From: a virus
DNA length: 64,000 bases
Strand: one strand, 5' to 3'
IMG/VR virus record: IMGVR_UViG_3300031884_000939
Span: 94,514-158,513 of that record
In this document: in pieces, positions 20,428 to 50,254 of the stretch
Position numbering within the stretch: the first letter of the stretch is position 1
Layout of the letters: the number at the start of each line of letters is the position of its first letter
The notes under the pieces: model-generated
What the model was told of the DNA's origin: nothing
Database searches by the model: none
The model's input: only the letters and a program-made list of their open reading frames with translations
Position numbers and translations under genes: made by a program

Positions 20428-20442
20428 CGTGCACGATAGATA

Positions 20443-27512: not shown

Positions 27513-27513
27513 G

Positions 27514-30081: not shown

Positions 30082-30082
30082 C

Positions 30083-30799: not shown

Positions 30800-30830
30800 A
30801 ATTAACCTCAAGGTTTGTTATACTTTACAT

Positions 30831-32024: not shown

Positions 32025-32031
32025 CAAGTAC

Positions 32032-33873: not shown

Positions 33874-34101
33874 CTATAACCATTTCAATCTAAAATATGT
33901 TGCGTCACTAGGGTTTTCAAATTTAAAAACAAATCCTTCTGTTCCTTTGTAGCCATGTAAATGATATCTGCCGCCCGGGGCTTCGGCAATCCATGCTAGT
34001 ATTTCTCTAATAGGAAAATAAGGTGCGTGGGTTATTTCGTCCCACATTATAATAACCTCTGTCCATTCAGGATATGGATATGTATAATCTATTTTTTCCA
34101 C
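33874..34101 (-). CDS. LKW-family small protein (RLKWL end)
   Basis: The 75-residue protein ends NPSDATYFRLKWL, the same C-terminal motif as the 18-20 kb array but 13 kb away. It starts with GTG at 34101, nested in the last codons of uvsE (13-bp overlap). The N-terminus is rich in Tyr, Pro and Trp (DYTYPYPEWTEV). Confidence 0.65.
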   Translation of the reverse strand: MEKIDYTYPYPEWTEVIIMWDEITHAPYFPIREILAWIAEAPGGRYHLHGYKGTEGFVFKFENPSDATYFRLKWL

Positions 34102-35117: not shown

Positions 35118-35123
35118 GTTACA

Positions 35124-35152
35124 ATAATACTATAACACGAATTAATTGTCAA
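35124..35152 (-). promoter_or_regulatory. Sigma70 promoter of uvsE, predicted leaderless start
   Basis: TTGACA (35147-35152), 17 nt, TATTAT (35124-35129), then exactly six bases to the ATG at 35117. It is the third case with this geometry in the window. Confidence 0.8.
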
Positions 35153-35709
35153 TCGTTTAGGATCTTTAAGACATTTTCAAAAGAGTCTTTGCCAATATTT
35201 GGTAATTCGGCTAACTCTGGCATAAAGTCATTAGGATGATCAACTACAATCCATTGTACATGGGGTGTTGATTTAATTGCTTGGGTAACCAAACCGCGAT
35301 AGTTTCGAGCTTTAACTTCCTCGAACTTGTCAGCTAATTTTTCTTTTTCGGTCCAATCAAATCCTATTAACAGCACTACATCGCAGATACTTGCGGCTAA
35401 ATTCATAGCAACGATTTCATCTTGATTGTTAACATCATGCCCTAAAAAATCGCCTTCGTATAATCTTACACCTTGAGGACGATTCAGTGATGTATAAGCC
35501 GAATTTGGAATATAAAAATTACAAGTAGCTTGAAAGGCTCTTTTAATCAATTCTTGTGCTTTGGTAACATCGTGACAAATAACATTATCAGTATTATATG
35601 CTCGCCAAGTTTTCCAAGAACCCCAAAATGCTCCGCCACGCTTCATACGCATGATATCAGCAGTAGGATCTAATACAAGATTGTCAGCAAGTACCCATTG
35701 AATATTCAT
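35149..35709 (-). CDS. Conserved phage protein, nucleotide-binding-like fold
   Basis: The 186-residue protein starts MNIQWVLADNLVLDPTADIM and shows alternating hydrophobic strands and helices (CDVVLLIGFDW, VQWIVVDH), a Rossmann-like pattern. FLGHDVNN and an N-terminal WGSWKTWRAY stretch are conserved-looking. I know it only as an uncharacterised T4-like phage protein. It diverges from the plus-strand cyclase operon. Confidence 0.65.
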   Translation of the reverse strand: MNIQWVLADNLVLDPTADIMRMKRGGAFWGSWKTWRAYNTDNVICHDVTKAQELIKRAFQATCNFYIPNSAYTSLNRPQGVRLYEGDFLGHDVNNQDEIVAMNLAASICDVVLLIGFDWTEKEKLADKFEEVKARNYRGLVTQAIKSTPHVQWIVVDHPNDFMPELAELPNIGKDSFENVLKILND

Positions 35710-35731
35710 ACATTTACTTAGTTAAAAATAT

Positions 35732-35750
35732 AATATAGGTACTTTATTCA
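35732..35750. promoter_or_regulatory. GGTACT/AGTACC dyad between divergent genes
   Basis: GGTACT and AGTACC flank a 6-bp spacer in the 93-bp region between the minus gene starting at 35709 and the plus gene at 35803. It may be an operator or simply a hairpin. Confidence 0.4.
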
Positions 35751-35773
35751 GTACCATTTGAACCCGAAATCTA

Positions 35774-35781
35774 GCTAAATA
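35774..35781 (+). promoter_or_regulatory. T4-like late promoter octamer
   Basis: GCTAAATA lies 21 bases before the ATG at 35803, so the cyclase operon appears to be late-transcribed. Confidence 0.65.
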
Positions 35782-35802
35782 TTTGTTACATTGGAGACAC
35801 AT

Positions 35803-36060
35803 ATGAAAGACTTTTTAACACACGACGAGCGCATTGAAGAAGGTACAGCATTACGAGATTTGGAAAGAAAAGTCCATTGGCTAATGTTTCAATTGGCCCA
35901 AGCAGGACTCGCTACAGATTTAGCTGGCAGCTCATATGCGTTCCCAGATGATTTAAATAAACAAGATATTCAAAATGATGCTATGGCAGTTGCTATGAAT
36001 GCTCAGCACGATAATGGACTCACCGCTGGGTGTGGCGCATTACAAAATAATCAAGAATAA
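35803..36060 (+). CDS. Conserved small phage protein before cyclase
   Basis: From ATG 35803 (preceded by TTGGAGACAC) the 85-residue protein starts MKDFLTHDERIEEGTALRDL. It has a helical, coiled-coil-like stretch (LRDLERKVHWLMFQLAQAGL). The upstream TTG reading start is unlikely because it lies in the ribosome-binding site. It ends one base before the cyclase start, so the two are translationally coupled. Confidence 0.65.
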   Translation: MKDFLTHDERIEEGTALRDLERKVHWLMFQLAQAGLATDLAGSSYAFPDDLNKQDIQNDAMAVAMNAQHDNGLTAGCGALQNNQE

Positions 36061-36061
36061 A

Positions 36062-38110
36062 ATGCTTCGCAAACTTTTACTCAGTCCATGGACTGCGTTA
36101 ATTACTGTAGGATTAATTACAGCTCTCCGTATTGCCGATCCTACATTTGTCGAATCAGTTCGACTACGCTATTTTGATACCTTAGTTACTAGTAAGGCAC
36201 CAGAAGTTATTGGCGTTCATGTTGTAAACATAGATGAAAAGGCATTAGAAAAATATGGACAATTTCCTTTCAGTCGGGATATCTACGGACGCATTATCTC
36301 CGATCTTTATAATCGCAACGCTGGTCTTGTTGTGTTCAATATTCTTACTCCTGATGGTGATCGTATGGGCAGGGATGGAGCGTATGTACAAGCATTGGGA
36401 AGGTTCCCATCAATTCTGCCAAACTTGGGTTCATCTCAAAATCGCAACAAAGCGAAAGTTCCGGGATCCGTTGTAATAGGTCCTTACAATAATCAAATAG
36501 TAGAATACCCAGGGATCATTGCTAACATACCTGCTGTAGAAAATGCTGCCGCCGGTGTTGGTATTGTAAACACTTTTCCTGAGATAGACGGAGTAGTACG
36601 CCGTGCCCCATTAGTAATTGCTAGTCAAGGTAAATTATATCCTAGTTTAGCTATGGAAACATTACGAGTGGCTGGAGCCGATACTACCTTCCAAGTTAAG
36701 CTCAACGAGAACGGTGTTGAGAAAATGCGTATTCCTGCGTTTGGTCCTATCGCGACAGACAGTCTAAGTCGTATATGGATTGATTGGAGTATGGTTCCCG
36801 AAGTTCATAGCCTTACTGACTTACCTAAAGATTTTGATGGCGAGATAGTCATTGTTGGCGTAAGTGCCGCAGGTCTCGCTAATCCAGTAGCGACAAGTAA
36901 GGGCGAGATGTTGCCACAAGAATTACAAGCGGCTGTACTAGGTACGGTTATTGCTAATAAAGATCGACCAGTTATCACTCGTCCAGATTGGGCTGATGGA
37001 GCAGAAGTCATTGGTTTAGTTATATTAGCTTTGGTATTATTATTTTTAACAAGGTATGTGTATGTTGGACTTATTGCTAGTATTAGTTTCATTGTTCTTC
37101 TTTTGTGTGCTGGGCACTACAGTTATTCGCTTTATAGCTACTTACTTGATGTTACTATTCCTGTCGGTGGTCTTATACTCGTATCTCTTCACGCCTATGG
37201 GGTTAAATTTGTAAGCGAGTTCTTACAGAAGCAAGCAATCAAGAAACAGTTTGCTGGATATGCTAGTCCGACTGTAGTTAAGTTGTTACAAGAAAATCCA
37301 GACTTAATCAAGAAGGGTATCAAGCGTGAAGTATCTATCTGCTTTAGTGACCTTCGTGGCTTTACTCCGTTAGGCGAATCGTTTGGTGATGATGTAGGCG
37401 GACTTACTCGAGTTATGAATGGCTACATGGATGCAATTACACAACCTATCCTAGAAGCTAACGGTATGGTTATTAAGTACATTGGTGATGCGTCAATGCA
37501 CATACACAATGCTCCTATCGATGATCCGGATCATCCTAAGACTGCGGTAGCAGTTGGATTAAAGATGGTCAAGGCTGTTAAGGAATATAGTAAACAGTTA
37601 GAGGCACAAGGTCGTCCTGGTGTTAAGATGGGTGCTGGTATTAACACAGGCTTAGGCTACATTGGCGAAATGGGCTCTACTCAGCGTCACAGTTACGATG
37701 TACTGGGCGATGCTGTATCAACTACAGCTCGTATCGAAAGTAAGTGTAAAGAATATGGATGTGTATTATTGGTTGGAGAAGAAACTGTTAAGCGTTGTGC
37801 GGACGATTACTTCTTTTTAAAGATTGACGACTTGACTGTCAAAGGTAAAAGTGTCGGAGTTGGTATCTACACAGTACTAGATGATGTTACGCCTGAATAT
37901 GTCTTAGCTGGTAAAACACATGATAAAATGCATCAACTATATAGACTTCAAAAGTTTGATGCGGCTATTATATTATGCCAAGAACTTAAAGCAGAGTTCG
38001 ATGGCAAGATGTCAGTTTATTATGATATGTGGATTGAGCGTTGTGAGTTCCAGAAGACGCAGGACCTGCCCGAAGATTGGAACGGCGTCTTCATTGCGAC
38101 TAGCAAATAA
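36062..38110 (+). CDS. CHASE2-domain adenylate cyclase
   Basis: The 682-residue protein has an N-terminal membrane anchor (about 10-28), a periplasmic CHASE2 sensor (about 30-300) and three transmembrane helices (about 316-390). A class III nucleotide cyclase domain occupies about 425-590. Metal-binding Asp residues are visible in ICFSDLRGFT and KYIGDASMHI, and the base-recognition Lys and Asp in VIKYIGD and YDVLGDAVSTTARIES. The usual transition-state Asn (VN-x-AAR) is Ser here, while the following Arg is kept. The product is inferred to be cAMP. It is preceded by ATG 36062 after a coupled small gene. Confidence 0.88.
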   Translation: MLRKLLLSPWTALITVGLITALRIADPTFVESVRLRYFDTLVTSKAPEVIGVHVVNIDEKALEKYGQFPFSRDIYGRIISDLYNRNAGLVVFNILTPDGDRMGRDGAYVQALGRFPSILPNLGSSQNRNKAKVPGSVVIGPYNNQIVEYPGIIANIPAVENAAAGVGIVNTFPEIDGVVRRAPLVIASQGKLYPSLAMETLRVAGADTTFQVKLNENGVEKMRIPAFGPIATDSLSRIWIDWSMVPEVHSLTDLPKDFDGEIVIVGVSAAGLANPVATSKGEMLPQELQAAVLGTVIANKDRPVITRPDWADGAEVIGLVILALVLLFLTRYVYVGLIASISFIVLLLCAGHYSYSLYSYLLDVTIPVGGLILVSLHAYGVKFVSEFLQKQAIKKQFAGYASPTVVKLLQENPDLIKKGIKREVSICFSDLRGFTPLGESFGDDVGGLTRVMNGYMDAITQPILEANGMVIKYIGDASMHIHNAPIDDPDHPKTAVAVGLKMVKAVKEYSKQLEAQGRPGVKMGAGINTGLGYIGEMGSTQRHSYDVLGDAVSTTARIESKCKEYGCVLLVGEETVKRCADDYFFLKIDDLTVKGKSVGVGIYTVLDDVTPEYVLAGKTHDKMHQLYRLQKFDAAIILCQELKAEFDGKMSVYYDMWIERCEFQKTQDLPEDWNGVFIATSK

Positions 38111-38323
38111 TTAAGCGTAATCCGGAACCTGTGGGTGAGAACCGTCGATAATTTCTGTATGTTGAATTTCGCCTGATTCTGCATCATAAATTTTAAAACT
38201 ATGCGGACCACGATTGTAAGCCAATGCTTTAGCTTCTTCATGTGAGTCAGCAAAATGTTCTTCTGTAAACAAACGACCATCGAACCATGTGAATAATTTT
38301 ACTTTGTGTTTTTTGTGTGACAT
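38111..38323 (-). CDS. Conserved small phage protein
   Basis: The 70-residue protein starts MSHKKHKVKLFTWFDGRLFT, with FADSHEEAKALAYNRGPHSF in the middle, a pattern I recognise from T4-like phages without known function. It is convergent with the cyclase (adjacent stops) and lies downstream of a glycosyltransferase gene. Confidence 0.7.
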   Translation of the reverse strand: MSHKKHKVKLFTWFDGRLFTEEHFADSHEEAKALAYNRGPHSFKIYDAESGEIQHTEIIDGSHPQVPDYA

Positions 38324-38334
38324 TTTTATTTCCT

Positions 38335-39387
38335 TTATTGTTTAAAATACTTAGTCCAAACTTTGCGAGTTTGGGTCGTATAGTTGGTTAATTTGCGTTG
38401 ATTTAACCATACATTAACTTGTGGCATAACATAGCTTCTGTACAGCTTGTTAGCTATATCGTGACTATTAGTTGGATCAGCATTAAAATAATTACTGCTC
38501 CAAGGAATCTCGACACTACCTACTAACGGAACTCCTTGACTAACTAAGTCAGCACCTACAATGTTAAATGTTTCACTAAAACTAACTTGTAATCCAATGT
38601 CCATTTGAGCACAAATTTTTAAGAAATCTTCTCTAGGACACCATTGATGATTAATCATTTCATGTCCTGTTCCTGCTAATTGCTCAAACAAACCTTTGAG
38701 ATTATTAAGAACAGGGCTACCATTCATTTCGATACGACCAGCATTAACATGGAATCGTAATTTTTTGCCAATGCGCCCAGCAAACTCCAAAGCAGCAAAT
38801 GCTTGCAACAAGTGATTTTTTAATGGGCGGATAGCTCCAAAACATCCAACATCAACATAATCTTTATCTTTGTTAAATTGTTTGGTTACATAATCTTGTG
38901 GATAAAAGTTGGGTTGATATAATACACGGGACCATGTTTGCTGATTGGTCCAGTTATTGCGTACTTGCAAGTAGTTGCGTATTTCTTGTAGCATTCTTGG
39001 AGCATTACAAGAAATGTACACATTCTTAAATGTAGTATAATCACCTACCCAATTTAGGGCATTTCCCTCACCTGCCATAAAAGGCATTTCAGAATGTAAG
39101 CGAATGATCCACTTTACTGTAGGATGTAATTTTTGTAAAATAACAAACTTGCTAGGCACCGACCAAAGTGCTTCAATAATTACGTGTGTTGGCTTGTGTT
39201 TAGTCACTAGTCGATCAATACAGTTATTATCAATAGCAACTTCGAGCACACTATCTAAACCAGCTTCTGTCATCATGTTGTTCATAAAACTAGCAGAATT
39301 ATATAAGCCTGTGGATAACCCCACATGACTGTGTAGCGACGCAGAGTAATCTTCTCTTCGCTTGAGTATGAATAGTGTTTTTGTCAT
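38335..39387 (-). CDS. GT-B fold glycosyltransferase-like protein
   Basis: The 350-residue protein resembles GT4-type enzymes: DVGCFGAIRPLKNHLLQAFA begins the C-terminal domain near residue 185, and LQVSFSETFNIVGADLVSQG then VPLVGS gives the donor-binding segment with Glu. The N-terminal domain (TKTLFILKRREDYSASLHSH) is a style found in many T4-like phages. The acceptor is unknown. A late octamer lies at 39419-39426. Confidence 0.75.
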   Translation of the reverse strand: MTKTLFILKRREDYSASLHSHVGLSTGLYNSASFMNNMMTEAGLDSVLEVAIDNNCIDRLVTKHKPTHVIIEALWSVPSKFVILQKLHPTVKWIIRLHSEMPFMAGEGNALNWVGDYTTFKNVYISCNAPRMLQEIRNYLQVRNNWTNQQTWSRVLYQPNFYPQDYVTKQFNKDKDYVDVGCFGAIRPLKNHLLQAFAALEFAGRIGKKLRFHVNAGRIEMNGSPVLNNLKGLFEQLAGTGHEMINHQWCPREDFLKICAQMDIGLQVSFSETFNIVGADLVSQGVPLVGSVEIPWSSNYFNADPTNSHDIANKLYRSYVMPQVNVWLNQRKLTNYTTQTRKVWTKYFKQ

Positions 39388-39418
39388 TTCGCTGTATGCA
39401 TTAAGAATAATATACAGC

Positions 39419-39426
39419 TATTTAGT
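39419..39426 (-). promoter_or_regulatory. T4-like late promoter octamer
   Basis: ACTAAATA on the minus strand lies 31 bases before the ATG at 39387; a TATAAT-like word overlaps just upstream. Confidence 0.6.
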
Positions 39427-39457
39427 ATTATAGCAAAAATTGAAGATTAAATATTTG

Positions 39458-39772
39458 TTACGCACTACCGCCGGAGGCTTCGTTATCGTTTGATGTTTTA
39501 TTGATTTCTGTTTCTGCTTGTACTCGTTCTGCTTCAATACTTTTGCCGCGCAGGTGTAATACAGTATTAACTTTTTGATTTAATCGAATCAAATCATTGT
39601 CCAACATACGGATGCGGTCGATAAGAGCAATAAGAACTGTGTTAGCATCATTGATTACAGGTTTGATTTCTTTGGTTGCCCATTCCCAAACCATGTGAAT
39701 GATAAAGCCCATACCAACCGCCATAACGATTGGGAATCCATATTTGCTAATTGCGTCTGCTATTCCGCCCAT
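39458..39772 (-). CDS. Small membrane protein, paralogue A
   Basis: The 104-residue protein has one N-terminal transmembrane helix (YGFPIVMAVGMGFIIHMVWE, about 11-30) and a coiled-coil-like region (IDRIRMLDNDLIRLNQKVNT) followed by a polar tail. The GFP-(I/V)-V start, the RIR/RVK-x-x-(L/M)-(D/N)-x-D-(L/V)-IR and the LxLR elements are shared with 40071-40352, showing duplication. Similar proteins in T4-like phages are called holin-like or virion membrane proteins without proof. Confidence 0.65.
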   Translation of the reverse strand: MGGIADAISKYGFPIVMAVGMGFIIHMVWEWATKEIKPVINDANTVLIALIDRIRMLDNDLIRLNQKVNTVLHLRGKSIEAERVQAETEINKTSNDNEASGGSA

Positions 39773-39870
39773 TTTTTCTTCTCTCTTTGATTTCTTGATT
39801 ACAAATTTTTATATACATCTCTAGCCACTTATGTCTGTTAATAACATAGTTGGCTCGATTATATGGCCAT

Positions 39871-40071
39871 TCAACTACCTTGTTCATTCTTAGCCGCACC
39901 ATCTTCTAAAAACTTAACCAACGGGTCTATTTTAATTAACAGTTGCCGACCATTTACATTTACAAACTTAAATAAATCTCCTGATTTCCAACCTAGCTTG
40001 TCAGTGTTAAGCTCTTCGTCTAATACGATTTTATCTTTAGTTAAGTACCACTGGTAATCGTAGTGAAACAT
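39871..40071 (-). CDS. Hypothetical small phage protein
   Basis: The 66-residue protein starts MFHYDYQWYLTKDKIVLDEE and contains LGWKSGDLFKFVNVNGRQLL, a small beta-barrel-like pattern (W-x-x-GD) common in uncharacterised phage proteins. Its start shares a base with the stop of the upstream paralogue B gene. Confidence 0.65.
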   Translation of the reverse strand: MFHYDYQWYLTKDKIVLDEELNTDKLGWKSGDLFKFVNVNGRQLLIKIDPLVKFLEDGAAKNEQGS

Positions 40072-40352
40072 TAATCTCTTCTCGCATCTGTTTTACCGTC
40101 GGCACGACTAATACGATCCACATCTGGGCGTAAACCTAATGCATTGCTAACTACTGTATCGATACGGATGACATCATGGTTCATAGTTTTAACACGGTTG
40201 TCTAATGCTGTAATAATGCCAGCCATACTTTTTACTGCGGATAACACTCCAGCTAATAATAGCTTAATTGTAAGATACACAAAATAGCCGCCAGCTAGCG
40301 CCGCAACGACTGGAAAACCTAGATCACCTACGATCTTGAATACTTCATTCAT
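40071..40352 (-). CDS. Small membrane protein, paralogue B
   Basis: The 93-residue protein starts MNEVFKIVGDLGFPVVAALA, with a transmembrane helix at about 12-36, then ITALDNRVKTMNHDVIRIDT VVSNALGLR, aligning with paralogue A at 39458-39772. It lies directly after curlin-like 2, with its own late-type octamer (40383-40390) and GGGG ribosome-binding site. Confidence 0.65.
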   Translation of the reverse strand: MNEVFKIVGDLGFPVVAALAGGYFVYLTIKLLLAGVLSAVKSMAGIITALDNRVKTMNHDVIRIDTVVSNALGLRPDVDRISRADGKTDARRD

Positions 40353-40382
40353 TATAACCCCTTATTATTTTTATTATACTAC

Positions 40383-40390
40383 TATTTAGT
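40383..40390 (-). promoter_or_regulatory. T4-like late promoter octamer
   Basis: ACTAAATA overlaps the stop of the curlin-like 2 gene, 30 bases before the ATG at 40352. A TATAAT word lies just downstream. Confidence 0.55.
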
Positions 40391-41174
40391 TGCCCTGGCG
40401 TACAGTTACCGTTCCGCAGGTAGTTACACAAGTTTGGGTAATACTATAATTTTGACCTCCAGTTTGAGTTAAATTCACACTAGCAGGAGCGCCAGCGTTT
40501 ATTAAGGTTATACTAGCACTATTAGGAGTACTACCGCTTTGATTTACAATAGCACTATTTCCATTTCCGGATTCTGATACATTTAAGTAATGACCAGCTG
40601 ATCCAGATTGCGTGGCTGATACTGTATTACTATTTCCATTAACGCTAGCAAATAGTTGCATTCTTGCCGTACCTGTTTGGGTAATCCCAACTGTGTTTAA
40701 GTCGCCTATAATATTTAAAGTTGCTGATTGGCCAGAGTTTGATGTAGTATTTTGTTGACTCGTAGTAATCATATTATCTGATCCATTAACATAAACATAT
40801 TGATAATGGCCACCAACATCGAGCCCAGTTGATAGTCCAACAACATCTGTTCCTTGGTTTAAATTTAAAATATTCCCAGGACCAATAACTGTCATATCAA
40901 TTTTATTTTTACCAGTGTTAGCAATTGGATCACCTTGTCTTGTTGTGATTTGATTTGCGCCACCACTAACTACAGCAATATGCGTACTTGAATTGAGAGT
41001 ATTGCCGCTTGCTCCTTCTAGAATATTGCTTGTACCGTTTTGTATAAGATTATAAGTGTCGCCTGTACCTATTTGATTAATATAGATAGAATTTGTGGTA
41101 ATAGGTTGTGAATGTGCCATAGGACTACAATATCCTAACCCAGCAACAAGAATGATTAATAAAAATTTTACCAC
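40386..41174 (-). CDS. Curlin-like repeat protein 2
   Basis: The 262-residue protein has a signal peptide (about residues 1-22, ending AHSQP). Curlin-type repeats (N-x-I-x-x-x-Q-x-G-x-x-N) follow, for example NSIYINQIGTGDTYNLIQNG, NTVGITQTGTARM, NTVSATQSGSAGH and NSAIVNQSGS. Such repeats stack into amyloid beta-solenoids in CsgA/CsgB. The C-terminus carries two cysteines (TCVTTCGTVTVRQGN), unusual for a curlin. It overlaps the TorF-like gene by 7 bp and is probably exported through the CsgG pore encoded 3 kb upstream. Confidence 0.75.
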   Translation of the reverse strand: MVKFLLIILVAGLGYCSPMAHSQPITTNSIYINQIGTGDTYNLIQNGTSNILEGASGNTLNSSTHIAVVSGGANQITTRQGDPIANTGKNKIDMTVIGPGNILNLNQGTDVVGLSTGLDVGGHYQYVYVNGSDNMITTSQQNTTSNSGQSATLNIIGDLNTVGITQTGTARMQLFASVNGNSNTVSATQSGSAGHYLNVSESGNGNSAIVNQSGSTPNSASITLINAGAPASVNLTQTGGQNYSITQTCVTTCGTVTVRQGN

Positions 41175-41854
41175 GATTTACTAACTCCTAACACCCAAGC
41201 GTTGCGATATAACTCATGCCCATCGACTGTATTAACTGTTTTAAAGTCTGCGCTTAGACCGCTGTTCCAATAATATGAAACAGATACATCTACGTCAAAT
41301 ATGTTATATGTAGGGCCAACTCGCCAGTCAGTGTAACTTAACCACGTAACAGGACTAACTGTTCGGCCAGCATGACTTACTAGTGTTATCTCTTTTATAG
41401 GCAAATAATTGTCTACGCTGTAATATTGTGTGCCTACAGTATTAGCAACACCAAACTCATTAGTTAAACTGCGATAATATTTAAATGTAAAATAAGGAAC
41501 ACGTAACTGAGCAAAAACTTCATTAGTATAATAGTTAGTAGCTCCAGGATAGTTATAAGTGTAATCCCCTACAAATATTTTTACATCATCATTAAATTTA
41601 TAATGATAGCCACCATACACATCAGCTTCTCCGCCGATACCATTATTGTATTCCTGTTTGCTTACTGTATTAAGTTTATTGCCCAACCATACTCCGCTAT
41701 CGTCACGATATTCTATTTGACTAGCTATACTTGGCGCCATATTAGATTGACTAACACCACGGAATCTATAATCGCTAACTACTCCTTCGGTTATATCAAT
41801 TGTACCTGCGTAGACAGGAGAACAAAATAATAAAATTAATAATATTCGTTTCAT
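41168..41854 (-). CDS. TorF-family outer membrane porin-like protein
   Basis: The 228-residue protein has a signal peptide (MKRILLILLFCSPVYAG) followed by ITEGVVSDYRFRGVSQSNMA, the characteristic start of TorF-type putative porins (a Y-x-(F/Y)-RG-x-S-x-S motif). Amphipathic strands follow and the last residue is a Trp, as in outer-membrane barrels inserted by BamA. It sits between the FecR-like and curlin-like 2 genes (1 bp from the former) and could serve transport across the outer membrane. Confidence 0.8.
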   Translation of the reverse strand: MKRILLILLFCSPVYAGTIDITEGVVSDYRFRGVSQSNMAPSIASQIEYRDDSGVWLGNKLNTVSKQEYNNGIGGEADVYGGYHYKFNDDVKIFVGDYTYNYPGATNYYTNEVFAQLRVPYFTFKYYRSLTNEFGVANTVGTQYYSVDNYLPIKEITLVSHAGRTVSPVTWLSYTDWRVGPTYNIFDVDVSVSYYWNSGLSADFKTVNTVDGHELYRNAWVLGVSKSW

Positions 41855-41855
41855 A

Positions 41856-43016
41856 TTAGTTCTGCTTCGTTGTTATAAAAGTATTGCCACCTTGATTAAC
41901 ACGGTTAGTAATTGTTACATTGCCCGCCTGTGTTTGGCTAATAGTACTATTTTGTCCATGTGGGGTTGTAACGCAACTAGTATTACTATTAGCATCTCCT
42001 CGACATAACTGTACTGATATTGGATCTACTGTGGCTACCACACCAGTTTTACTATTGTAATCGGGTAACAGTTGATTTTTAGGAGGCGCAAGCAAATTAC
42101 CAAATTCTTGTGCTAGCTGTTCATTCATTAATTGTAATATACTTTCAAGAAAATCTTGGTCTAATAAATTACGCTGTAAGGCATTAGAATATATTTGATT
42201 GTTTTCAGCGGCTAGTACACTACTTAAATCAACTCCTTGTAAAAAATTTTGACTTAAGGCCGTAACATTTTGATGCTTTTCGTCATCTCTTTCTTTTGTC
42301 GCATTTTTAATTTCTTGTGGAGGTGCTAATATTAATATGTTACTTATTGCGTCTTCTGATAGATGTAATGTTGTTGGTTTTGTCGGAGCGACATTTCGAG
42401 CTACCACTTTGGTTCCTTGAAATGGTTGATCTAATAATACACTACCCGCTTCATTAATAACTTCAATTTTTCCAGTTTTACACAAACGCTCTATTTCGTC
42501 TGGAAGCATATCTTTACGAGGGCAAGACGGTAATAAAATAACAGTACTTGCGCCAAGCTCATCTACTGTAGCGGTAAAGTCAGTACCCCGGACAGCCACA
42601 GTAGCAGTAGGAGTATTAATAGCCACGCTATTAGGATTGTTGTGAGCAATGGCACCACTAGCGTATCGAACAGTACCCGAAGCCATGTTAAGAGCCAGTT
42701 TACCAACTCCTTTACTTTTTGGATCATATACGAATTCATCAATAACGAGTTTAGAATTTTCATTTACTTGTACTTTTGTATCGTCGGCGAAAACAATTAC
42801 AACTTTACCTTGTTTCGTGTTTATTGCGTCGGCCATCTCCACCCCAGTCCCCTTTGTCCCGGGTAGAGTCGTCTTGGCTCTTTGAATCTGAGCTGGATTG
42901 TTTACTTGTTCGGTAATAGTTCCTATTGCGGCTTCGCAGTTCGTGTAAGTATTGAACAAGCCCACGCAAAACATGACTATCCATAATTTTAATCTCCCTT
43001 TTCGAACCAATAACAT
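41856..43016 (-). CDS. FecR-domain protein with curlin-like C-terminus
   Basis: The 386-residue protein has a signal sequence (KGRLKLWIVMFCVGLFNTYT). A periplasmic FecR domain occupies about 45-200 (NTKQGKVVIVFADDTKVQVN, ASGTVRYASG, INTPTATVAVRGTDF) and a helical middle region follows. The last 40 residues read like curlin repeats (NSTISQTQAGNVTITNRVNQ then GGNTFITTKQN). FecR domains sense or scaffold at the envelope and are common beside CsgG/LPP20 genes in bacteria. The fusion suggests contact with curlin-like subunits. Confidence 0.8.
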   Translation of the reverse strand: MLLVRKGRLKLWIVMFCVGLFNTYTNCEAAIGTITEQVNNPAQIQRAKTTLPGTKGTGVEMADAINTKQGKVVIVFADDTKVQVNENSKLVIDEFVYDPKSKGVGKLALNMASGTVRYASGAIAHNNPNSVAINTPTATVAVRGTDFTATVDELGASTVILLPSCPRKDMLPDEIERLCKTGKIEVINEAGSVLLDQPFQGTKVVARNVAPTKPTTLHLSEDAISNILILAPPQEIKNATKERDDEKHQNVTALSQNFLQGVDLSSVLAAENNQIYSNALQRNLLDQDFLESILQLMNEQLAQEFGNLLAPPKNQLLPDYNSKTGVVATVDPISVQLCRGDANSNTSCVTTPHGQNSTISQTQAGNVTITNRVNQGGNTFITTKQN

Positions 43017-43162
43017 TTTTGTAATTCTCTCATTAATTGGTCTTTCGATTCGTGTGTAAGTCTGTGGGCTAATTCTACAAAGTCCACGGCTCTACTAGCA
43101 ACATTAGACTGACCATCGCTCCACTGTTGATATACTGTTTTTAGGAAACGAAGGTCTGCCAT
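42989..43162 (-). CDS. Small cytoplasmic protein in curli-like cluster
   Basis: From ATG 43162, two bases after the curlin-like 1 stop, the 57-residue protein reads MADLRFLKTVYQQWSDGQSN and continues as charged helices with no signal peptide. It overlaps the FecR-like start by 28 bp. It does not look like CsgE or CsgC, which are exported. The longer frame running back into curlin-like 1 is rejected. Confidence 0.6.
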   Translation of the reverse strand: MADLRFLKTVYQQWSDGQSNVASRAVDFVELAHRLTHESKDQLMRELQKCYWFEKGD

Positions 43163-43163
43163 A

Positions 43164-44069
43164 TTAATGATGTTGTACGATTGTCCAGTTGTTACTACCA
43201 CCACTACTTTGAATATTTGTGGTATTATTACCTGTTGTGGCACTTTGGGTAACATTAAATGTATTGCCGCTTCCAGTCAATCCTAGCACAAAAGTATTAT
43301 CTGCTGTGCCTGTTTGACTAGCTGTAAGACTATTGCTAGATCCTGTTAAAGAACCAACAACAGATATTCCAGTAGCATTATATCCGCCTACAGTAATAGT
43401 ATCACCATTTGTTCCACCGGTTTGTGTAATGCCAAAAGTATTACTTGCTCCAGTGCTATTTAATGTAACTGCTGCGTTAGTAGCTACAGTAGTTGAGTTA
43501 CCTTGAACAAGATTTAAACTATTATTGCCACCGCCGTTCATTACAATGGTATCAGCATTACTTGTGCCATATATACTAGCAACTACAGAATTATATGTTC
43601 CACCAGCAGTAGTAGCTGTGAAGTTATTTCCTGTACCTAATAAATTAATATTTAAATTAGAATAATTGCCAGTTTGTGTTACTGCGATATTATTACTTGC
43701 GCTAGTATCAGAGCCATCGTTATTACTATTAATAACAGCGGTAGCATTATTACCTGTTACAGAGTAACTATAATTGTTACCGGTTAATCCATTAGCTACA
43801 CTTGTTTGTATTCCAAATTGTAATGTATTACCAGTACCAATTTGACTAACTGATACGATATTATTGTTACCAACAATAACGGCTGGCGTGGTAGCACTTG
43901 TACCTGTGCCTTGTACGCCTTCTACTGCGTTTCCTGCGCCATCTTGTGTAACAGAAATACTACTGTTACCTCCTGATTGATTAATGTAGATGGTATTATC
44001 AGCACCAAACACATTTAAACTTGCTACAGCTAGCATTGTTATTATTGTTTTCGCTAGGTTTATTTTCAT
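43164..44069 (-). CDS. Curlin-like repeat protein 1
   Basis: The 301-residue protein has a signal peptide (MKINLAKTIITMLAVASLNVFGA) and is then built almost wholly of curlin-like repeats: NTIYINQSGGNSSISVTQDG, NIVSVSQIGTGNT, NIAVTQTGNYSN, NTFGITQTGG, NSLTASQTGT and NTFNVTQSAT. The Q-x-G-x-x-N spacing is the amyloid-forming signature of CsgA/CsgB. It lies directly downstream of csgG and csgF, so it is the likely main secreted substrate. It is about twice CsgA's length. Confidence 0.82.
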   Translation of the reverse strand: MKINLAKTIITMLAVASLNVFGADNTIYINQSGGNSSISVTQDGAGNAVEGVQGTGTSATTPAVIVGNNNIVSVSQIGTGNTLQFGIQTSVANGLTGNNYSYSVTGNNATAVINSNNDGSDTSASNNIAVTQTGNYSNLNINLLGTGNNFTATTAGGTYNSVVASIYGTSNADTIVMNGGGNNSLNLVQGNSTTVATNAAVTLNSTGASNTFGITQTGGTNGDTITVGGYNATGISVVGSLTGSSNSLTASQTGTADNTFVLGLTGSGNTFNVTQSATTGNNTTNIQSSGGSNNWTIVQHH

Positions 44070-44096
44070 TTTACTTCTTCCTTTGGTCTTAGACCA

Positions 44097-45059
44097 TTAT
44101 TTTACAATTCCTATTTTTGCCTCTACATCTGCTGGTAAACTCGGATTTTTAGACATACCGAGTGGAATTGTTGCGGTGCCGTTTGCTTCTGGATTTGGAA
44201 CTACTGGTGCTACTTGGACATAATCCCAAACACCTTTGCGTTGCCCTTCTTTAATTAATTCTACTACACTTGATTCAATAGTTGTTTTAAGTGCTATTGT
44301 TGTAGCTTCGTTAATTGTTAATCCAGATTCAAATTGAAATATTGCTGCTGCCGCATCTGTTGCGCCGTTGTTACTAGCGCCTACTTGTTTAACTATACTG
44401 CTTATGCCACCTGGATCAATACTTTTAAAAATGGCAATACTATCTGCGGTACTGTAAACAATCTTTGTAACGGTTACCGACGCTAAGATTTTACCAGTGT
44501 TTACACTTACTGCTCGTAAACTAATTGTAATAATATCTTTACTGTATTGAGTCGATGGGCCAATACCTAGGAAATTATATCCAATGCCCCCTGACTCTAA
44601 CCCAGTGTCGTAACCAATAATCCCACCTTCAATAATAACTCCAGCAAATTGTAGTGGCATTAATTTCTGTGCGTCTTTACCTTCATAGGCTTGGCGCATC
44701 TGTGTAATAATTAATCTTTCTTTAGTAAGCGCATCAATATTACCGCGCTCGACTACTTCAAACCATTGACCTTTACCTACATCTTGTAAGGCACGAATCA
44801 GTAAAGCATCTCCGCCTTGTGTAACCGCTGTACTAAAACTAGCAATACCCGGAACGGCTTTACGCTGTCCAGTTTTATCAGCGAACTGATATACTGCTAC
44901 AGTAAGTTTGCCTTTGGCTGGAGGAGGTACAGCATCAAATTCTTTTTGTAGTTCATTTTTAGGAATTTGCGGTTTATGATCCGGGACACCAATTTTCTGG
45001 CCTATAGCACAACCAGATAACATAACGATTAAGACTAATGTAGGAAATAATTTACGCAT
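44097..45059 (-). CDS. csgG: CsgG-like outer membrane secretion lipoprotein
   Basis: The 320-residue protein has a lipobox (MRKLFPTLVLIVMLSGC) and the full CsgG pattern: LTVAVYQFADKTGQRK, the channel-loop segment GIASFSTAVTQGGDALLIRA, WFEVVERGNIDALTKERLII, and IIEGGIIGYDTGLESGGIGY. CsgG forms a nine-subunit outer-membrane pore that exports curlins. By hand alignment, E. coli constriction Phe56 is kept (FSTAV) but the Tyr51 and Asn55 positions differ. The C-terminal ~50 residues extend past the family core. It shares one base with the csgF stop. Confidence 0.92.
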   Translation of the reverse strand: MRKLFPTLVLIVMLSGCAIGQKIGVPDHKPQIPKNELQKEFDAVPPPAKGKLTVAVYQFADKTGQRKAVPGIASFSTAVTQGGDALLIRALQDVGKGQWFEVVERGNIDALTKERLIITQMRQAYEGKDAQKLMPLQFAGVIIEGGIIGYDTGLESGGIGYNFLGIGPSTQYSKDIITISLRAVSVNTGKILASVTVTKIVYSTADSIAIFKSIDPGGISSIVKQVGASNNGATDAAAAIFQFESGLTINEATTIALKTTIESSVVELIKEGQRKGVWDYVQVAPVVPNPEANGTATIPLGMSKNPSLPADVEAKIGIVK

Positions 45060-45526
45060 TATTGACCGCTTCCTGTGATATTAAATGAGCCAAGCGGAAC
45101 ATTAATTGTAGTAATATTTCCTACATTGTCTGTTACTTGAAGTTGAATTACCGATCCAGTATTAGTCCAGAAAATTGTATTGCCTTGAAAATTCATTTGT
45201 CCGCTAGTAGAGCTTCCACCGGCAAACATAGCTGTAGCTAAATTTTGACTAATCTGTGCGTAAATGCGAGATTCAAGATTAGTTAAAAATTGATTGATTG
45301 GTGTGTTAGCGGCGTCAGCTTTTGCTTGGGCTTGGGCTGCAATTAGAGCCTGTTGAATTGCCTGTGAACGAGCATATTGTTCGTTTTCTAAAGCCATTTG
45401 AAATGAGCCGTAACCGTTTCCGTTAAGACTTGGGCTTTTAAATTGATAATCCGCTATAGGCGTTGCGACGGCTTGTAAGGAGATCGCAGATAAACATAGC
45501 AGAGTCGTTCTTATTATTATTTTCAT
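45059..45526 (-). CDS. csgF: CsgF-like curli nucleation/pore partner
   Basis: The 155-residue protein has a signal peptide (MKIIIRTTLLCLSAISLQAVA). DYQFKSPSLNGNGYGSFQMA then follows, the N-terminal motif of CsgF that in E. coli inserts into the CsgG pore and narrows it (F-x-NP-x-FGGN-type). The C-terminal strands (FWTNTGSVIQLQVTDNVGN then ITTINVPLGSF) match the family's beta-sheet end. It heads the operon behind a 17-bp dyad. CsgE and CsgC were not found. Confidence 0.9.
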   Translation of the reverse strand: MKIIIRTTLLCLSAISLQAVATPIADYQFKSPSLNGNGYGSFQMALENEQYARSQAIQQALIAAQAQAKADAANTPINQFLTNLESRIYAQISQNLATAMFAGGSSTSGQMNFQGNTIFWTNTGSVIQLQVTDNVGNITTINVPLGSFNITGSGQ

Positions 45527-45569
45527 ACTCTCGCTCCTACTATTATTTAACAGTAAAAAGCAAGTAGTT

Positions 45570-45586
45570 AAGTTATGTTATAACTT
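45570..45586. promoter_or_regulatory. 17-bp palindrome upstream of csgF-like gene
   Basis: AAGTTAT-GTT-ATAACTT is a perfect 7-3-7 dyad 44-60 bp before the csgF-like ATG. Only weak promoter-like words lie between (TTAACT with a GTTAAATA late-like box), so this may be a binding site that controls the cluster. Confidence 0.5.
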
Positions 45587-45620
45587 GTTCTAGAGCAAAA
45601 GGTTAGCTCTGGGGAGAATG

Positions 45621-45971
45621 TTATTTTGCTATAATTCCTGTCCAGGACTCGTCTGGCTCGTTTTCTTTGTATTCTATAAGGCGTTTAGCAAGGATTTCAT
45701 AGAAGGTATCAACTTGTTTGCCCCAGAAGCCCATTAAATGTCCAATGGCTTGAGTACAGAAATCCCAGTTACGCTTACGATATTGCTCCATCATATCAGA
45801 ATGAAGTTTTTTGAATTTGTCAGCTTTAGGCAGTTCTTCAAGGGGTATATTTTCGATAATACAGTACACAGTAATGGGAGTACTGCTTTTAATAGTAACG
45901 GTATCTAACTCAAGTACAATATACTTCTCGCTAAGTTGTTCTGCTTCGCTGGTGCCAAAAATAATATTCAA
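45621..45971 (-). CDS. Conserved phage protein, function unknown
   Basis: The 116-residue protein starts MNIIFGTSEAEQLSEKYIVL and contains VYCIIENIPLEELPKAD and YRKRNWDFCTQAIGHLMGFW, blocks I recognise from a family widespread in T4-like marine phages with no known role. A short hairpin region separates it from the csgF-like gene, so it may be outside that operon. Confidence 0.72.
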   Translation of the reverse strand: MNIIFGTSEAEQLSEKYIVLELDTVTIKSSTPITVYCIIENIPLEELPKADKFKKLHSDMMEQYRKRNWDFCTQAIGHLMGFWGKQVDTFYEILAKRLIEYKENEPDESWTGIIAK

Positions 45972-45997
45972 TCTGTATCTCCTGTTAAATAATTATC

Positions 45998-46786
45998 ATG
46001 ATATTCAACTTTGATTTAATTTCCGACATCCACAGAGAAACTTGGGCAAACTTTGATTGGGAAGGTCAACCGACTGCGCCATATTGTATTGTAGCAGGTG
46101 ATATAGCAAGAGACCGAGCATTAGTAATAGATACCTTAGAACAACTTAGCGAAGTATATCAAGGAGTGTTTTACATTGACGGTAATGATGAACATAAAGA
46201 TTACGGCGAAGATTTAGGTCGTAGTTATGCTGAATTAAATGATTTAATAAAAGCAATGCCCAAGGTTGTGTATATGCAAGACAATGTTGTAATCATAAAT
46301 GGTATTGCTATTGTAGCAACAAATGGGTGGTGGACTTACGACTTTGATTGTAACTTAGAATTAGATCAATCAATACAGTGGGTACAACAGAAAGATAGTA
46401 TTACACAGGAAGCGGCGATAAACATCAATGGTGTAGGGTACAACGATGCGGGATACATGGCAAATGGTGTACAAAAATTACAAGCCCACAGGGATGTCAA
46501 AGCAATCATCATGGTAACGCATACCGTGCCCCGAGCAGAAATTATCGAACATGATTTAGAATTAATTGATACTTGGCGATTTAACTCTATGGGCAATAGT
46601 CATATGACTAATGCGTTACGAGAAGACTTAGAGCATAAAGTTAAACTTTGGTGTTTTGGTCATTATCATAGACCAGTTGATACTATAATCGATGGTATTA
46701 GATATGTTAGCAATCCTCGGGGAAGAGGCGATACTCAATATTCTCAAGTGGCCTACTATCCCAAAAGAATTAGCGTAAAAATTTAA
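45998..46786 (+). CDS. Metallophosphoesterase 2
   Basis: The 262-residue protein carries the calcineurin-like pattern: D10-... in LISDIH (Asp9/His12 region), AGDI at 33-36, GNDEH at 62-66 (Asp replaces the usual His of GNHE), MVTHTVP and CFGHYHRP near 225. The deviation in the third motif could change metal choice or weaken activity. It is a single plus-strand gene between two minus operons. It is only distantly similar to the enzyme at 1379-2299. Confidence 0.85.
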   Translation: MIFNFDLISDIHRETWANFDWEGQPTAPYCIVAGDIARDRALVIDTLEQLSEVYQGVFYIDGNDEHKDYGEDLGRSYAELNDLIKAMPKVVYMQDNVVIINGIAIVATNGWWTYDFDCNLELDQSIQWVQQKDSITQEAAININGVGYNDAGYMANGVQKLQAHRDVKAIIMVTHTVPRAEIIEHDLELIDTWRFNSMGNSHMTNALREDLEHKVKLWCFGHYHRPVDTIIDGIRYVSNPRGRGDTQYSQVAYYPKRISVKI

Positions 46787-47091
46787 ACAGTTTCTGGTTC
46801 TAGTTTAATCTGTAACGGCATATCTTGTGACCGAGCACAAACTGTAACTTCAATACCTTTTTGTTCAGCTACTTCGTATGGCAATACTGCTACTACTGCT
46901 GATCCAGCTTCGTGAATATCTTGAGTAATCTTTACCGCAGAGTCTGGTGTGTAATCAAAAAAGTTCATTAAAGATTCGATAACAAATTCCATAGTTGTGC
47001 CGGTATCATTTAAATAGATAACTTTAAACATAGGTGGTTCTTTAAGTTCATTATTAACTTGTATTTGTGTAACGATATCTGCTTGTGACAT
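46783..47091 (-). CDS. clpS: ClpS adaptor protein
   Basis: The 102-residue protein matches ClpS: EPPMFKVIYLNDTGTTMEFV, FFDYTPDSAVKITQDIHEAG, and a C-terminal ARSQDMPLQIKLEPE. Residues that form the N-degron pocket in bacteria (Asn-Asp, Met of MEF and His of DIHEAG) are present. ClpS delivers N-end-rule substrates to ClpA (or ClpC); this phage encodes ClpX instead, so it would act through the host unfoldase. It converges on metallophosphoesterase 2 with a 4-bp overlap. Confidence 0.92.
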   Translation of the reverse strand: MSQADIVTQIQVNNELKEPPMFKVIYLNDTGTTMEFVIESLMNFFDYTPDSAVKITQDIHEAGSAVVAVLPYEVAEQKGIEVTVCARSQDMPLQIKLEPETV

Positions 47092-47108
47092 ACTATTCCT
47101 TTGTTTTT

Positions 47109-47135
47109 AGTAGGGGGCATAATTGCCCCCGTACT
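47109..47135. other. GC-rich hairpin between hsp20 and clpS
   Basis: AGTA-GGGGGC pairs with GCCCCC-GTACT around a 5-6 nt loop in the gap between hsp20 and clpS. The minus-strand side is followed by A-rich rather than U-rich sequence, so it is more likely an mRNA-processing or stability element than a terminator. Confidence 0.5.
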
Positions 47136-47152
47136 GTATTTACTATATTATA

Positions 47153-47593
47153 TTACGATTCGTATGTAATAGCAATAGTTTTAGGCTGAAGTGCTTCAGG
47201 AATATGGCGCTCTAACTTAACCGTTAAGATACCATTCTTTACCGATGCTGTAATTACTTCTACATGATCGGCTAAACTGAATGTACGGATAAAGCGTCTG
47301 TCACTAATACCTTTGTGTGTATATTCTACACCTTCTGGTAATTCTTCTGGTAACTTTTCGCCAGTAATAACCAAATTACTATCACGAACTGCTACTTCGA
47401 TTTCACCTTGAGTAAATCCAGCTACAGCCACTTGAACTTCAAACGTGTTCTCGCCGGTTTTCAAAATGTTATATGGCGGATAGTTTTGTGTACTAGCCGT
47501 ATCAATTTGATTAATAATTCGATCAAATAGTTTATCGACTCCGATAGAGTTACGATAGAATGGGTTTAAATCTAATGCTGTGAGTTTAGTCAT
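47153..47593 (-). CDS. Hsp20/IbpA-type small heat shock protein
   Basis: The 146-residue protein has the alpha-crystallin core: NPFYRNSIGVDKLFDRI at the N-terminus, YNILKTGENTFEVQVAVAGF, and VKNGILTVKLER (the A-x-x-x-n-G-v-L motif). The C-terminal KTIAI is a possible I-x-I/V-type anchoring motif. It holds unfolded proteins for DnaK, whose gene lies directly upstream. Small heat shock proteins are common in T4-like cyanophages. Confidence 0.92.
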   Translation of the reverse strand: MTKLTALDLNPFYRNSIGVDKLFDRIINQIDTASTQNYPPYNILKTGENTFEVQVAVAGFTQGEIEVAVRDSNLVITGEKLPEELPEGVEYTHKGISDRRFIRTFSLADHVEVITASVKNGILTVKLERHIPEALQPKTIAITYES

Positions 47594-47622
47594 TTTATTC
47601 TCCTTAATTAAGCAAGACTAAT

Positions 47623-47650
47623 GTGTGGGCCCGACTATCGGCACCCACAC
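47623..47650. other. Hairpin between dnaK and hsp20
   Basis: GTGTGGG pairs with CCCACAC and the loop holds a second GCC/GGC-type pairing. It lies between the dnaK stop and the hsp20 ribosome-binding site and could limit read-through or protect an mRNA end. Confidence 0.5.
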
Positions 47651-47658
47651 TATTTTTA

Positions 47659-49557
47659 CTACTTTTCAGTAAAGTCAGCGTCTACGACATTGTCGTCATC
47701 GGCTGGCTTAGCTGACTCTTGTGGCTCAGCAGCAGGTTGTGCTGCTTGTGCCTTTGCTTCTTGAATAGCCTGCGAGGCTGTTATTAAAGCGGTTACTGCC
47801 TTTTGGATTTCGTCCCTATCAGTACCTTTGACTGCTTCTTCTACAGCCTTGATAGCTGTGTTGATATCGTCAATTTGTGTACCGCTAAGGCTACTGCTAG
47901 TTTCATCTAGGTCCTTACGGATCTCGTGTACCATAGCATCAGCAGAGTTGCGAGCTTGGATGAGTTCAACTTGTTTCTTATCATCTTCCGCATTAGCTTC
48001 TGCTTCTTTAATCATCTTTTGAATTTCATCATCTGACAATCCTGAGTTTGCTTTAATAGTAATCTTGTTTTCTTTGCCTGTGGTTTTATCCTTGGCTTTA
48101 ACACTTAAGATACCATTTGCGTCAATATCAAGCTCAACGTCAATTTGTGGTTGACCTCGGCGTTGTGGCTGGATGCCTTCTAAACTAAACTCGCCTAAGA
48201 GTTTATTGTAAGAGCATAACTCGCGCTCGCCTTGATAAACTTTAATTGTAACTGCTGGTTGGTTATCTTCGGCAGTACTAAACACTTGATTAGCCTTAGT
48301 AGGAATCGTAGTGTTCTTTTTAATCAACTTAGTCATTACACCGCCCATAGTTTCAATGCCTAATGACAATGGGGTAACATCAAGTAACAATACGTCTGTA
48401 CGGTCGCCGCCTAATACAGCACCTTGAATAGCCGCACCAGCCGCTACTGCTTCGTCTGGATTAACATCTTTGCGTGGTGCTTTACCAAACAGCTTCTCAA
48501 CTGTTTCTTGTACTTTAGGCATACGAGTCATGCCACCAACAAGAATAACCTCGTCGATATCGCTGTTACTTACACCCGCATCAGACATGGCAGTCTTACA
48601 TGGGCCTACGGAACGTTGAATCAATTCATCAACTAAACTTTCAAATTTAGCACGAGAGATGGTAACATTCAAATGCTTAGGACCACTTGCGTCTGCTGTA
48701 ACATATGGTAAGTTAACAGTAGTAGACTGTGCTGAAGACAATTCAATCTTAGCTTTTTCTGCGGCATCTTTCAAACGCTGTAATGCTAACACATCACTTT
48801 TAAGGTCACATCCAGATTCTTTCTTAAACTCATCACAGAGGTAATCCATAATGCGTTGGTCAAAGTCTTCGCCGCCCAAGAATGTATCGCCGTTAGTTGA
48901 CAATACTTCAATCTGCTTGTCGCCATCCACATTGGCAATTTCGATAATGGACACATCAAATGTACCACCACCTAAGTCATACACGGCAATTTTACGATCC
49001 TTAGTACTTGCTTTATCAACGCCATATGCTAGTGCGGCCGCTGTTGGCTCGTTGATAATGCGTAGAACTTCTAAGCCCGCAATTTTACCTGCGTCTTTGG
49101 TAGCTTGTCTTTGGCTGTCATTGAAGTATGCTGGTACAGTGATAACGGCTTGTGTAACTGTCTCACCTAAATAGTCTTCGGCAGTTTTTTTCATCTTACG
49201 CAATACTTCAGCAGATACTTGTGGTGGTGCCAAATCTTGGCCATTTGCTTGAATCCAAGCATCACCATTATCAGCTTCGATAATTTTGTAAGGCATCAAG
49301 TTGATGTCTTTTTGTACAGCTTCTTCTTTAAATTTACGACCAATCAAACGCTTTGCAGCATAGATTGTGTTCGATGGGTTTGTAACTGATTGGCGTTTAG
49401 CTGTAGCACCAACTAATACTTCGTCGGCTGTATAGGCGACAATACTTGGTGTAGTTCTAGCACCTTCTGCGTTTTCAATTACTTTTGGAATGTTATTTTC
49501 GATTACGGAAACACAGGAATTTGTAGTTCCCAAATCTATGCCGATGATTTTGCTCAT
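47659..49557 (-). CDS. dnaK: DnaK (Hsp70) chaperone
   Basis: The 632-residue protein is a complete Hsp70: [13 protein letters not shown] at 6-18, [18 protein letters not shown] (phosphate 2), [14 protein letters not shown] (adenosine motif), a linker [18 protein letters not shown] and a full substrate domain and lid. It ends [11 protein letters not shown]. It uses ATP to refold proteins with DnaJ and GrpE, neither of which is in the window. It is close in length to bacterial DnaK, suggesting acquisition from a host. A late-type octamer lies at 49622-49629. Confidence 0.96.
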
Positions 49558-49621
49558 GTTGTTTTCTCCTTTAATTAAGCAAGTAACTTCTTACGAACCC
49601 AAACTACGGCATTCGTAGAAG

Positions 49622-49629
49622 TATTTATG
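49622..49629 (-). promoter_or_regulatory. T4-like late promoter octamer of dnaK
   Basis: CATAAATA on the minus strand lies about 65 bases before the dnaK ATG, followed by a CTACG/CGTAG hairpin in the leader. Confidence 0.55.
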
Positions 49630-49669
49630 GTACTACAAAATCATTATATACAAATATTATTCGGTTAAG

Positions 49670-50032
49670 TTAAGCATTTCTGATAACCAGTTTAGCTTTA
49701 ATTTTAGTAGGGCTAAAATGTTTCTTTACTACCTTTTCTGCCGTTTTTGGATTAAACTTTTTACAGCTAAACACATCAATGTATGCCGTTCTATCTTGAT
49801 CCATAAAGTGTCCAGTAATGTTACTAGTTTGTATTAGCTGAACTAAACTGTATCCACTGTTTGGATGTCCATCGAGCAAATACTTAATTACTGGTTTGCC
49901 CACTGCTTCCATTTTAATTTGCTCTACCAAGTCTTTGATAAACTCTTTTAATTTAGCTTTACTATTGATATTGTCATTCATGCCTTGGCAATCCAGCATT
50001 AGGTGGTAACCCCATGGTTTGATTTTTTTCAT
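49670..50032 (-). CDS. AdoMet decarboxylase-like (SpeD) protein
   Basis: The 120-residue protein resembles the bacterial SpeD/SpeH fold: WGYHLMLDCQGMN at the start, then GYSLVQLIQTSNITGHFMDQ and TAYIDVFSCKKFNPKTAEKV. The Ser in TSNITGHF aligns with the serine that becomes the pyruvoyl cofactor, and His (GHF) and Cys (FSC) match later active-site residues. In classical enzymes the Ser is followed by His, here Asn. It would make decarboxylated AdoMet for spermidine. SpeD-like genes are known from T4-like cyanophages. Confidence 0.75.
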   Translation of the reverse strand: MKKIKPWGYHLMLDCQGMNDNINSKAKLKEFIKDLVEQIKMEAVGKPVIKYLLDGHPNSGYSLVQLIQTSNITGHFMDQDRTAYIDVFSCKKFNPKTAEKVVKKHFSPTKIKAKLVIRNA

Positions 50033-50254
50033 TTAAAATAATTTTTTAGGTAATTGTTGATCGCGGAGTTTTTTGCGCCATCTAGCTTTGGCAGCGCCTT
50101 TTTTACGCTTGCGTTCAGTAGTTGGTTTTTCGTAAGTTTCACGGGCACGAAGGTCATCAAGTAATCCAGATTCCTGGACTTTCTTTTTGAATTTTCTGAG
50201 GGCTTTTTCGACGTTGCCGTCTTTAACTAATACCCCTTTACCGTAATACGTCAT
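50033..50254 (-). CDS. rpsU: Ribosomal protein bS21
   Basis: The 73-residue basic protein matches bS21: [20 protein letters not shown] near the N-terminus, then an Arg/Lys-rich C-terminal helix ([17 protein letters not shown]). bS21 joins the 30S subunit near the anti-Shine-Dalgarno and affects initiation. A phage copy could exchange into host ribosomes and favour phage mRNAs, an idea proposed for other phages. It lies between clpX and the SpeD-like gene with 0-4 bp junctions. Confidence 0.93.

Follow-up and report, generated by a model that had tools for sequence, protein, structure and literature searches.

In the virus record IMGVR_UViG_3300031884_000939 (IMG/VR), a 64,000-nucleotide stretch (positions 94,514 to 158,513; the whole stretch is referred to as the window) carries on its minus strand a run of genes related to the curli system, which probably makes up a type VIII (curli) module for export and signalling, encoded by the phage. 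Curli are sticky amyloid fibres that bacteria use for clumping and adhesion. We propose that a CsgG:CsgF outer-membrane pore would export two curlin beta-solenoid proteins onto the surface of the infected cell, with curlin-1 as the constant and curlin-2 as the variable subunit. In most relatives, curlin-2 would be a display subunit bearing an exchangeable carbohydrate-binding-like head. An exported FecR protein and a CHASE2-adenylate cyclase would together form a signalling arm from periplasm to cytoplasm, with cyclic nucleotide being made according to the state of the envelope or the fibre, and paired small membrane proteins would act at the inner membrane, possibly as holin-like factors. The window phage appears to have gained a TorF porin at a site between FecR and curlin-2. 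Infected cells would likely benefit the phage by adhering to, or aggregating with, new hosts or particles. This mechanism is supported by the conservation of a CsgF motif and of the cyclase positions, the constancy of curlin-1 and the variability of the curlin-2 heads. At the level of sequence comparison, the genes, their order, their co-inheritance, the exchange of curlin-2 heads and the conserved catalytic and CsgF motifs can be read directly; from these we infer secretion, amyloid formation, signalling and the benefit.

From position 45526 down to 40386 the order on the minus strand is csgF, csgG, curlin-1, a gene of 57 amino acids (aa), FecR, the TorF porin and curlin-2. Downstream of curlin-2 follow hmA (40071-40352), a small gene and hmB (39458-39772). 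Starts and stops overlap or almost touch, spacing that would be expected of a single transcription unit. Apart from the 57-aa product, every protein encoded from csgF to curlin-2 has an N-terminus that looks by eye like an export signal, with a lipobox in CsgG. An initial annotation, made from the letters alone, had named the run from csgF to the second curlin, and family matches bear it out, being strong except for curlin-2. The gate CsgE, the chaperone CsgC and the regulator CsgD, which belong to the canonical csgBAC/csgDEFG operon of bacteria, were not seen on reading the annotated neighbourhood, no family search being aimed at them. Promoter and terminator scans came out near chance level, and the T4 late promoter motif TATAAATA is less frequent in the window than expected by chance. 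No Rfam element was detected in 35000-47500, so no counterpart was detected near the module of the glutamine riboswitch reported for phage Melnitz.

The two pore genes carry the clear signatures first ascribed to them. The csgF product (45059-45526) matches PF10614 (CsgF; expectation value, E, 7.5e-14) and has a signal peptide followed by an N-terminal F-x-[SN]-P-x-F-x-G segment, a motif kept in ~130 of 133 homologues. In Escherichia coli, the N-terminal segment of CsgF inserts in the CsgG barrel. The neighbouring gene, csgG (44097-45059), encodes an outer-membrane secretion pore lipoprotein (LSGC lipobox) that matches PF03783 (CsgG; 2.1e-41) and aligns across most of its length with the solved E. 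coli CsgG (E 5e-39); the lipobox cysteine is invariant among homologues. Next comes curlin-1 (43164-44069), a secreted curlin-repeat protein matching PF07012 (Curlin_rpt; 1.1e-4).

The database and synteny comparison suggested by the initial annotation shows that this gene order recurs across 129 distinct viral csgG loci. These counts refer to open reading frames matched by hidden Markov models (HMMs) in viral contigs retrieved by CsgG or hmA, and hence not to a random sample of phages. csgF lies upstream of csgG in 125/128 loci, curlin-1 and then FecR stand at the same place downstream in 99/100, the cyclase is present in 74/80, and a recognisable second curlin lies between FecR and the cyclase in 54/74. 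One set of six records among 50,697 from phages (four of Melnitz and two of HTVC008M) is matched by every one of CsgG, FecR, the cyclase, hmA and hmB, CsgG alone matching in addition one unannotated 1.5-kb phage record; a nucleotide-level search against phages gave no match. The phage CsgG proteins form a clade of their own (100/99 support), and the nearest relative of the window CsgG is encoded on a viral contig (86% identical). That bacterial and phage sequence were joined by chance or as a chimera, a concern raised at the outset, is excluded for practical purposes because more than 100 separate viral contigs show this order amid phage neighbours. Several of them also share the dnaK-hsp20-clpS genes upstream of csgF, an order kept in many relatives.

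Curlin-2 (40386-41174, minus strand) is a bare beta-solenoid in the window, and its own match to Curlin_rpt (0.004) falls below the curated cut-off. We nonetheless accept it as a curlin since 25 of 41 aligned homologues match Curlin_rpt and its AlphaFold2 model is a beta-solenoid (predicted local distance difference test score 83, predicted template modelling score 0.79). Thus, the earlier claim of two separate curlin-repeat proteins holds, through Pfam for curlin-1 and through relatives and the model for curlin-2. In viral loci, curlin-2 is between about 90 and 850 residues long. The C-terminal solenoid is shared and the N-terminus is exchanged: among the 41 homologues scanned, it is a PA14 domain in 11, GLEYA in 6 and F5/8 type C in 6, the others being unknown or absent. 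Judged from these domain scans, curlin-2 is a head-swapping protein whose putative binding head changes from phage to phage.

The cyclase gene (35999-38110, plus strand) encodes a CHASE2-adenylate/guanylate cyclase (PF05226, 1.3e-34; PF00211, 2.6e-16) and is convergent to the rest of the module. The 39458-45526 limits first drawn around the cluster therefore enclose genuine members and stop short of this one, which had been overlooked. Its catalytic positions, including the metal-binding aspartate as well as a lysine and an arginine, are kept in 102/102 sequences. Directly upstream of csgF lies a 116-aa stand-alone homologue of the cyclase C-terminal region (45621-45971, minus strand; BLASTP 5e-8 to cyclase residues 590-697) that could modulate the cyclase; a comparable gene is found there in 20/101 viral loci. 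The window has the small pair after curlin-2 and a convergent cyclase; locus L013 carries the same block in reverse, and both arrangements are found elsewhere.

The other half of the suggested signalling arm is the exported FecR-domain protein (41856-43016, minus strand; PF04773, 1.7e-10), which continues into a helical linker and a beta-rich, glutamine-containing tail. Its structure model resembles the signalling domain of PupR and of a putative anti-sigma factor. Unlike the iron-citrate anti-sigma regulator FecR, with its cytoplasmic sigma-binding N-terminus, single transmembrane helix and FecI/FecA partner, it has an export-signal-like start and a Pfam match confined to the FecR domain, and no sigma factor or FecA was seen among the neighbours of the gene. 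Two invariant glutamines lie ~22 residues apart in the tail, which is modelled as beta strands. The resemblance to a curlin repeat is limited to spacing and strands, as a profile comparison with curlin-2 indicated no homology (1.9% probability). We also rejected a role as a retention plug in the style of RTX adhesins, for which Foldseek gave a short match (5ix9, E 0.022) that is too weak, and the idea that FecR and CHASE2-cyclase generally go together in bacteria: FecR domains occur widely in Alphaproteobacteria, but a cyclase lies next to them in few of the short loci. Between curlin-1 and FecR lies the 57-aa gene (42989-43162, minus strand), with a conserved MADL start within a longer open reading frame (42989-43255). 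It stands at the same place in L002/L003 (79% identical) and L005 (33%), and is absent from many other loci.

The small membrane genes at the end of the run, on the minus strand, had been named in the initial annotation, which missed their strict partnership with the curli genes. hmA (phrog_18771, 4.8e-32) is weakly holin-like, the holin family phrog_4898 being matched in 7/15 members (best 5e-4). hmB, a distant paralogue of hmA with the LIDRIRMLDNDLIRL motif, is found in the same six phage records as CsgG. Between them lies s66 (39871-40071), with HMM matches at that position in many relatives. With hmA alone, 78 viral loci were retrieved; csgG lies in the same stretch in 48 of them, and all ten full-length hmA stretches without csgG have it elsewhere in the same record. 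Because csgG co-occurs in the stretch or the record, we regard hmA and hmB as partners of the curli genes and not as general phage genes. One or two "histidine kinase" genes have been named at this position of the module in pelagiphages (Wittmers 2022, PMC9599517), and by position these are apparently hmA/hmB (93-104 aa). A Pfam scan of hmA and hmB found neither a holin family nor a kinase domain, and at this level the kinase label finds no support.

The TorF/Gcw_chp outer-membrane porin (41168-41854, minus strand) gives a full-length family match above curated cut-offs (PF09694, 1.1e-22; TIGR02001 above the NCBIfam cut-off) and has a signal peptide by eye. It resembles the putative TorF family porins over its full length and differs from them in being phage-borne, inside a curli module. 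A porin stands between FecR and curlin-2 in just two other viral contigs, 3300032665_001702 (61-62% identical) and 3300022602_003915 (49%); among viral loci with enough flank, it is present in 2/80. In 369 gammaproteobacterial genomes, the closest porins reach just 28-36% identity, too distant to point to a host. As a separate observation, a short curlin-2 in locus L015 is followed by a 661-aa protein (7733-9718) without a Pfam match, the C-terminal part of which resembles an outer-membrane beta-barrel and which may parallel the added porin.

The core of the module is already known (PMC7029224, PMC9004378, PMC9599517). A csgF-csgG-curlin-FecR-curlin-adenylate cyclase set has been published for marine pelagiphages (HTVC023P-type, myovirus and HTVC008M; PMC9599517), and the GenBank records of HTVC008M and Melnitz contain two curlins, FecR and the cyclase. 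The window agrees with the published set in having csgF, csgG, curlin and FecR adjacent on one strand, a second curlin, and the cyclase nearby on the opposite strand. The gene order from csgF to the cyclase is also the same, as is the presence of small genes before csgF, and CsgG and FecR are 36-39% identical to those of HTVC008M. The window differs in having the porin and in the downstream position of the cyclase and the small pair, the cyclase being convergent (as in L197 and L210). The Methylophilales/OM43 phage Melnitz (PMC9004378) shares hmA, hmB, csgF, csgG, curlin, FecR, curlin and the cyclase (50% identical), but it lacks the porin, and outside the module only remote homologues are common to the two phages. 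Melnitz was stated to lack csgA/csgB (PMC9004378); its GenBank record disagrees in annotating two curlin-repeat proteins. The initial annotation was thus correct in recognizing a curli-like secretion module in a phage. It knew of no described phage set with two curlins, FecR and a porin, and of these the curlins and FecR, together with the cyclase, had been described (PMC9599517), the porin being the new part. Our literature search, with most subscription papers outside the searched set, found no report of a TorF porin within a phage curli module, of phage curlins with PA14 or F5/8-C heads, or of small membrane proteins strictly paired with phage curli. The interchangeable N-terminal heads on a conserved curlin-2 solenoid thus appear to be a new observation, as does the lack of a kinase domain in the small pair.

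Bacterial curli (csg) operons share the CsgG pore, CsgF and curlin substrates with the phage module, but the phage CsgG is a separate clade and nearly all of 80 bacterial csgG loci are without FecR, the cyclase and the small pair. The exceptions are phage-looking short contigs of metagenome-assembled genomes (MAGs) and a Hyphomonas MAG with FecR and the cyclase. On a 705-kb contig of the latter (L112:9459-15482), csgF-csgG-curlin-FecR-CHASE2 cyclase stand among cellular genes without the small pair; it is the only clearly bacterial row inside the phage CsgG clade, on a long branch. Hence, the association of curlin, FecR and cyclase is not confined to phages, and this operon, a cellular counterpart of the phage module, adds to the alphaproteobacterial origin proposed for the phage module (Wittmers et al., PMC9599517). 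Nine MAG contigs (L115, L122, L140, L143, L161, L163, L170, L185 and L189), all short except L161, carry phage-type curli genes and several also the small pair; they probably come from phages and were wrongly binned with MAGs of Bacteroidota, Rhodobacteraceae and others.

What the module does for the phage can be weighed against several roles, most of them offered in the initial annotation. Repurposed lysis, in which the CsgG:CsgF pore and a small-pair inner-membrane holin permeabilise the envelope late and the curlins act as plugs or gates, has already been proposed for Melnitz (PMC9004378). The weak holin likeness of hmA and its occurrence only with csgG are in keeping with this role, as is a gene for a SleB-type cell-wall hydrolase at 58132-58656. 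We consider it unlikely, however, as a lysis pore needs neither curlins nor FecR nor an apparently intact cyclase, all almost always kept, and as the curlin-2 heads vary as adhesins do. Moreover, the argument for Melnitz leaned on the missing curlins that its own record annotates. A pore serving lysis alone is thereby weakened, and aggregation gains indirect support. Nutrient entry or envelope remodelling, with CsgG and the TorF porin opening the outer membrane to solutes in a long infection and the curlins secondary, seems less likely again: uptake has been suggested (Zaragoza-Solas 2020, PMC7029224), and both the added porin and the CsgE gate not found on reading the neighbourhood (no dedicated search) would fit, but the rarity of the porin argues that it is not the core function, and the conserved curlin, FecR and cyclase would go unexplained. 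A superinfection barrier, an amyloid coat or FecR/curlin proteins masking receptors from other phages, would suit surface-exposed variable heads; these heads, however, resemble binding domains rather than receptor mimics, and we regard this role as improbable.

Aggregation or adhesion is the best account of the curlin-2 heads. A more specific form is offered tentatively, being itself rather doubtful: a curlin amyloid with swappable heads (PA14, F5/8-C and others) that would evolve like tail-fibre tips and hold hosts or particles before lysis, with FecR/CHASE2-cyclase and the small pair providing the timing. Several points weigh against an adhesive export module. No clumping was seen in Melnitz cultures (PMC9004378); curlin-2 of the window phage is headless and has no significant match to any solved fold, and a second curlin is unrecognised in 20/74 loci. 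The constriction loop of CsgG departs from the E. coli form, which may mean that substrates are handled differently, and the CsgE gate was likewise missing from the neighbourhood read by eye, to which no dedicated family search was applied.

With regard to the T4-like label of the initial annotation, a gp43-type polymerase, a gp44-type clamp loader and a DNA ligase are present, but neither the Gp23 capsid protein nor Portal_T4 has a match in the 158,513-base record, possibly an incomplete genome. The window has no transfer RNA genes. Many host-type proteostasis genes (GroES-like, ClpP, ClpX, ClpS-like, Hsp20 and DnaK) lie elsewhere in the window, at 27225-28137 and 46783-51441. About eight small genes (73-90 aa) at 17801-20715 and 33874-34101 share an F/Y-x-L-[KR]-W-like C-terminus and look like a local gene-family expansion. 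At 28978-30811, an exported 367-aa protein, with a marginal FlgP match (E 0.5), precedes a 242-aa lipoprotein, possibly a second outer-membrane assembly. Genes for a fatty acid hydroxylase (24379-24819) and a fatty acid desaturase (31320-32027) are also present.

For years, phage curli genes have been described with no function assigned to them. The present comparison fixes the likely functional unit as pore, curlin, FecR, cyclase and small membrane pair, and adhesion, lysis and uptake can now be separated through single-gene deletions in a cultured phage-host pair, e.g., Melnitz/H5P1.

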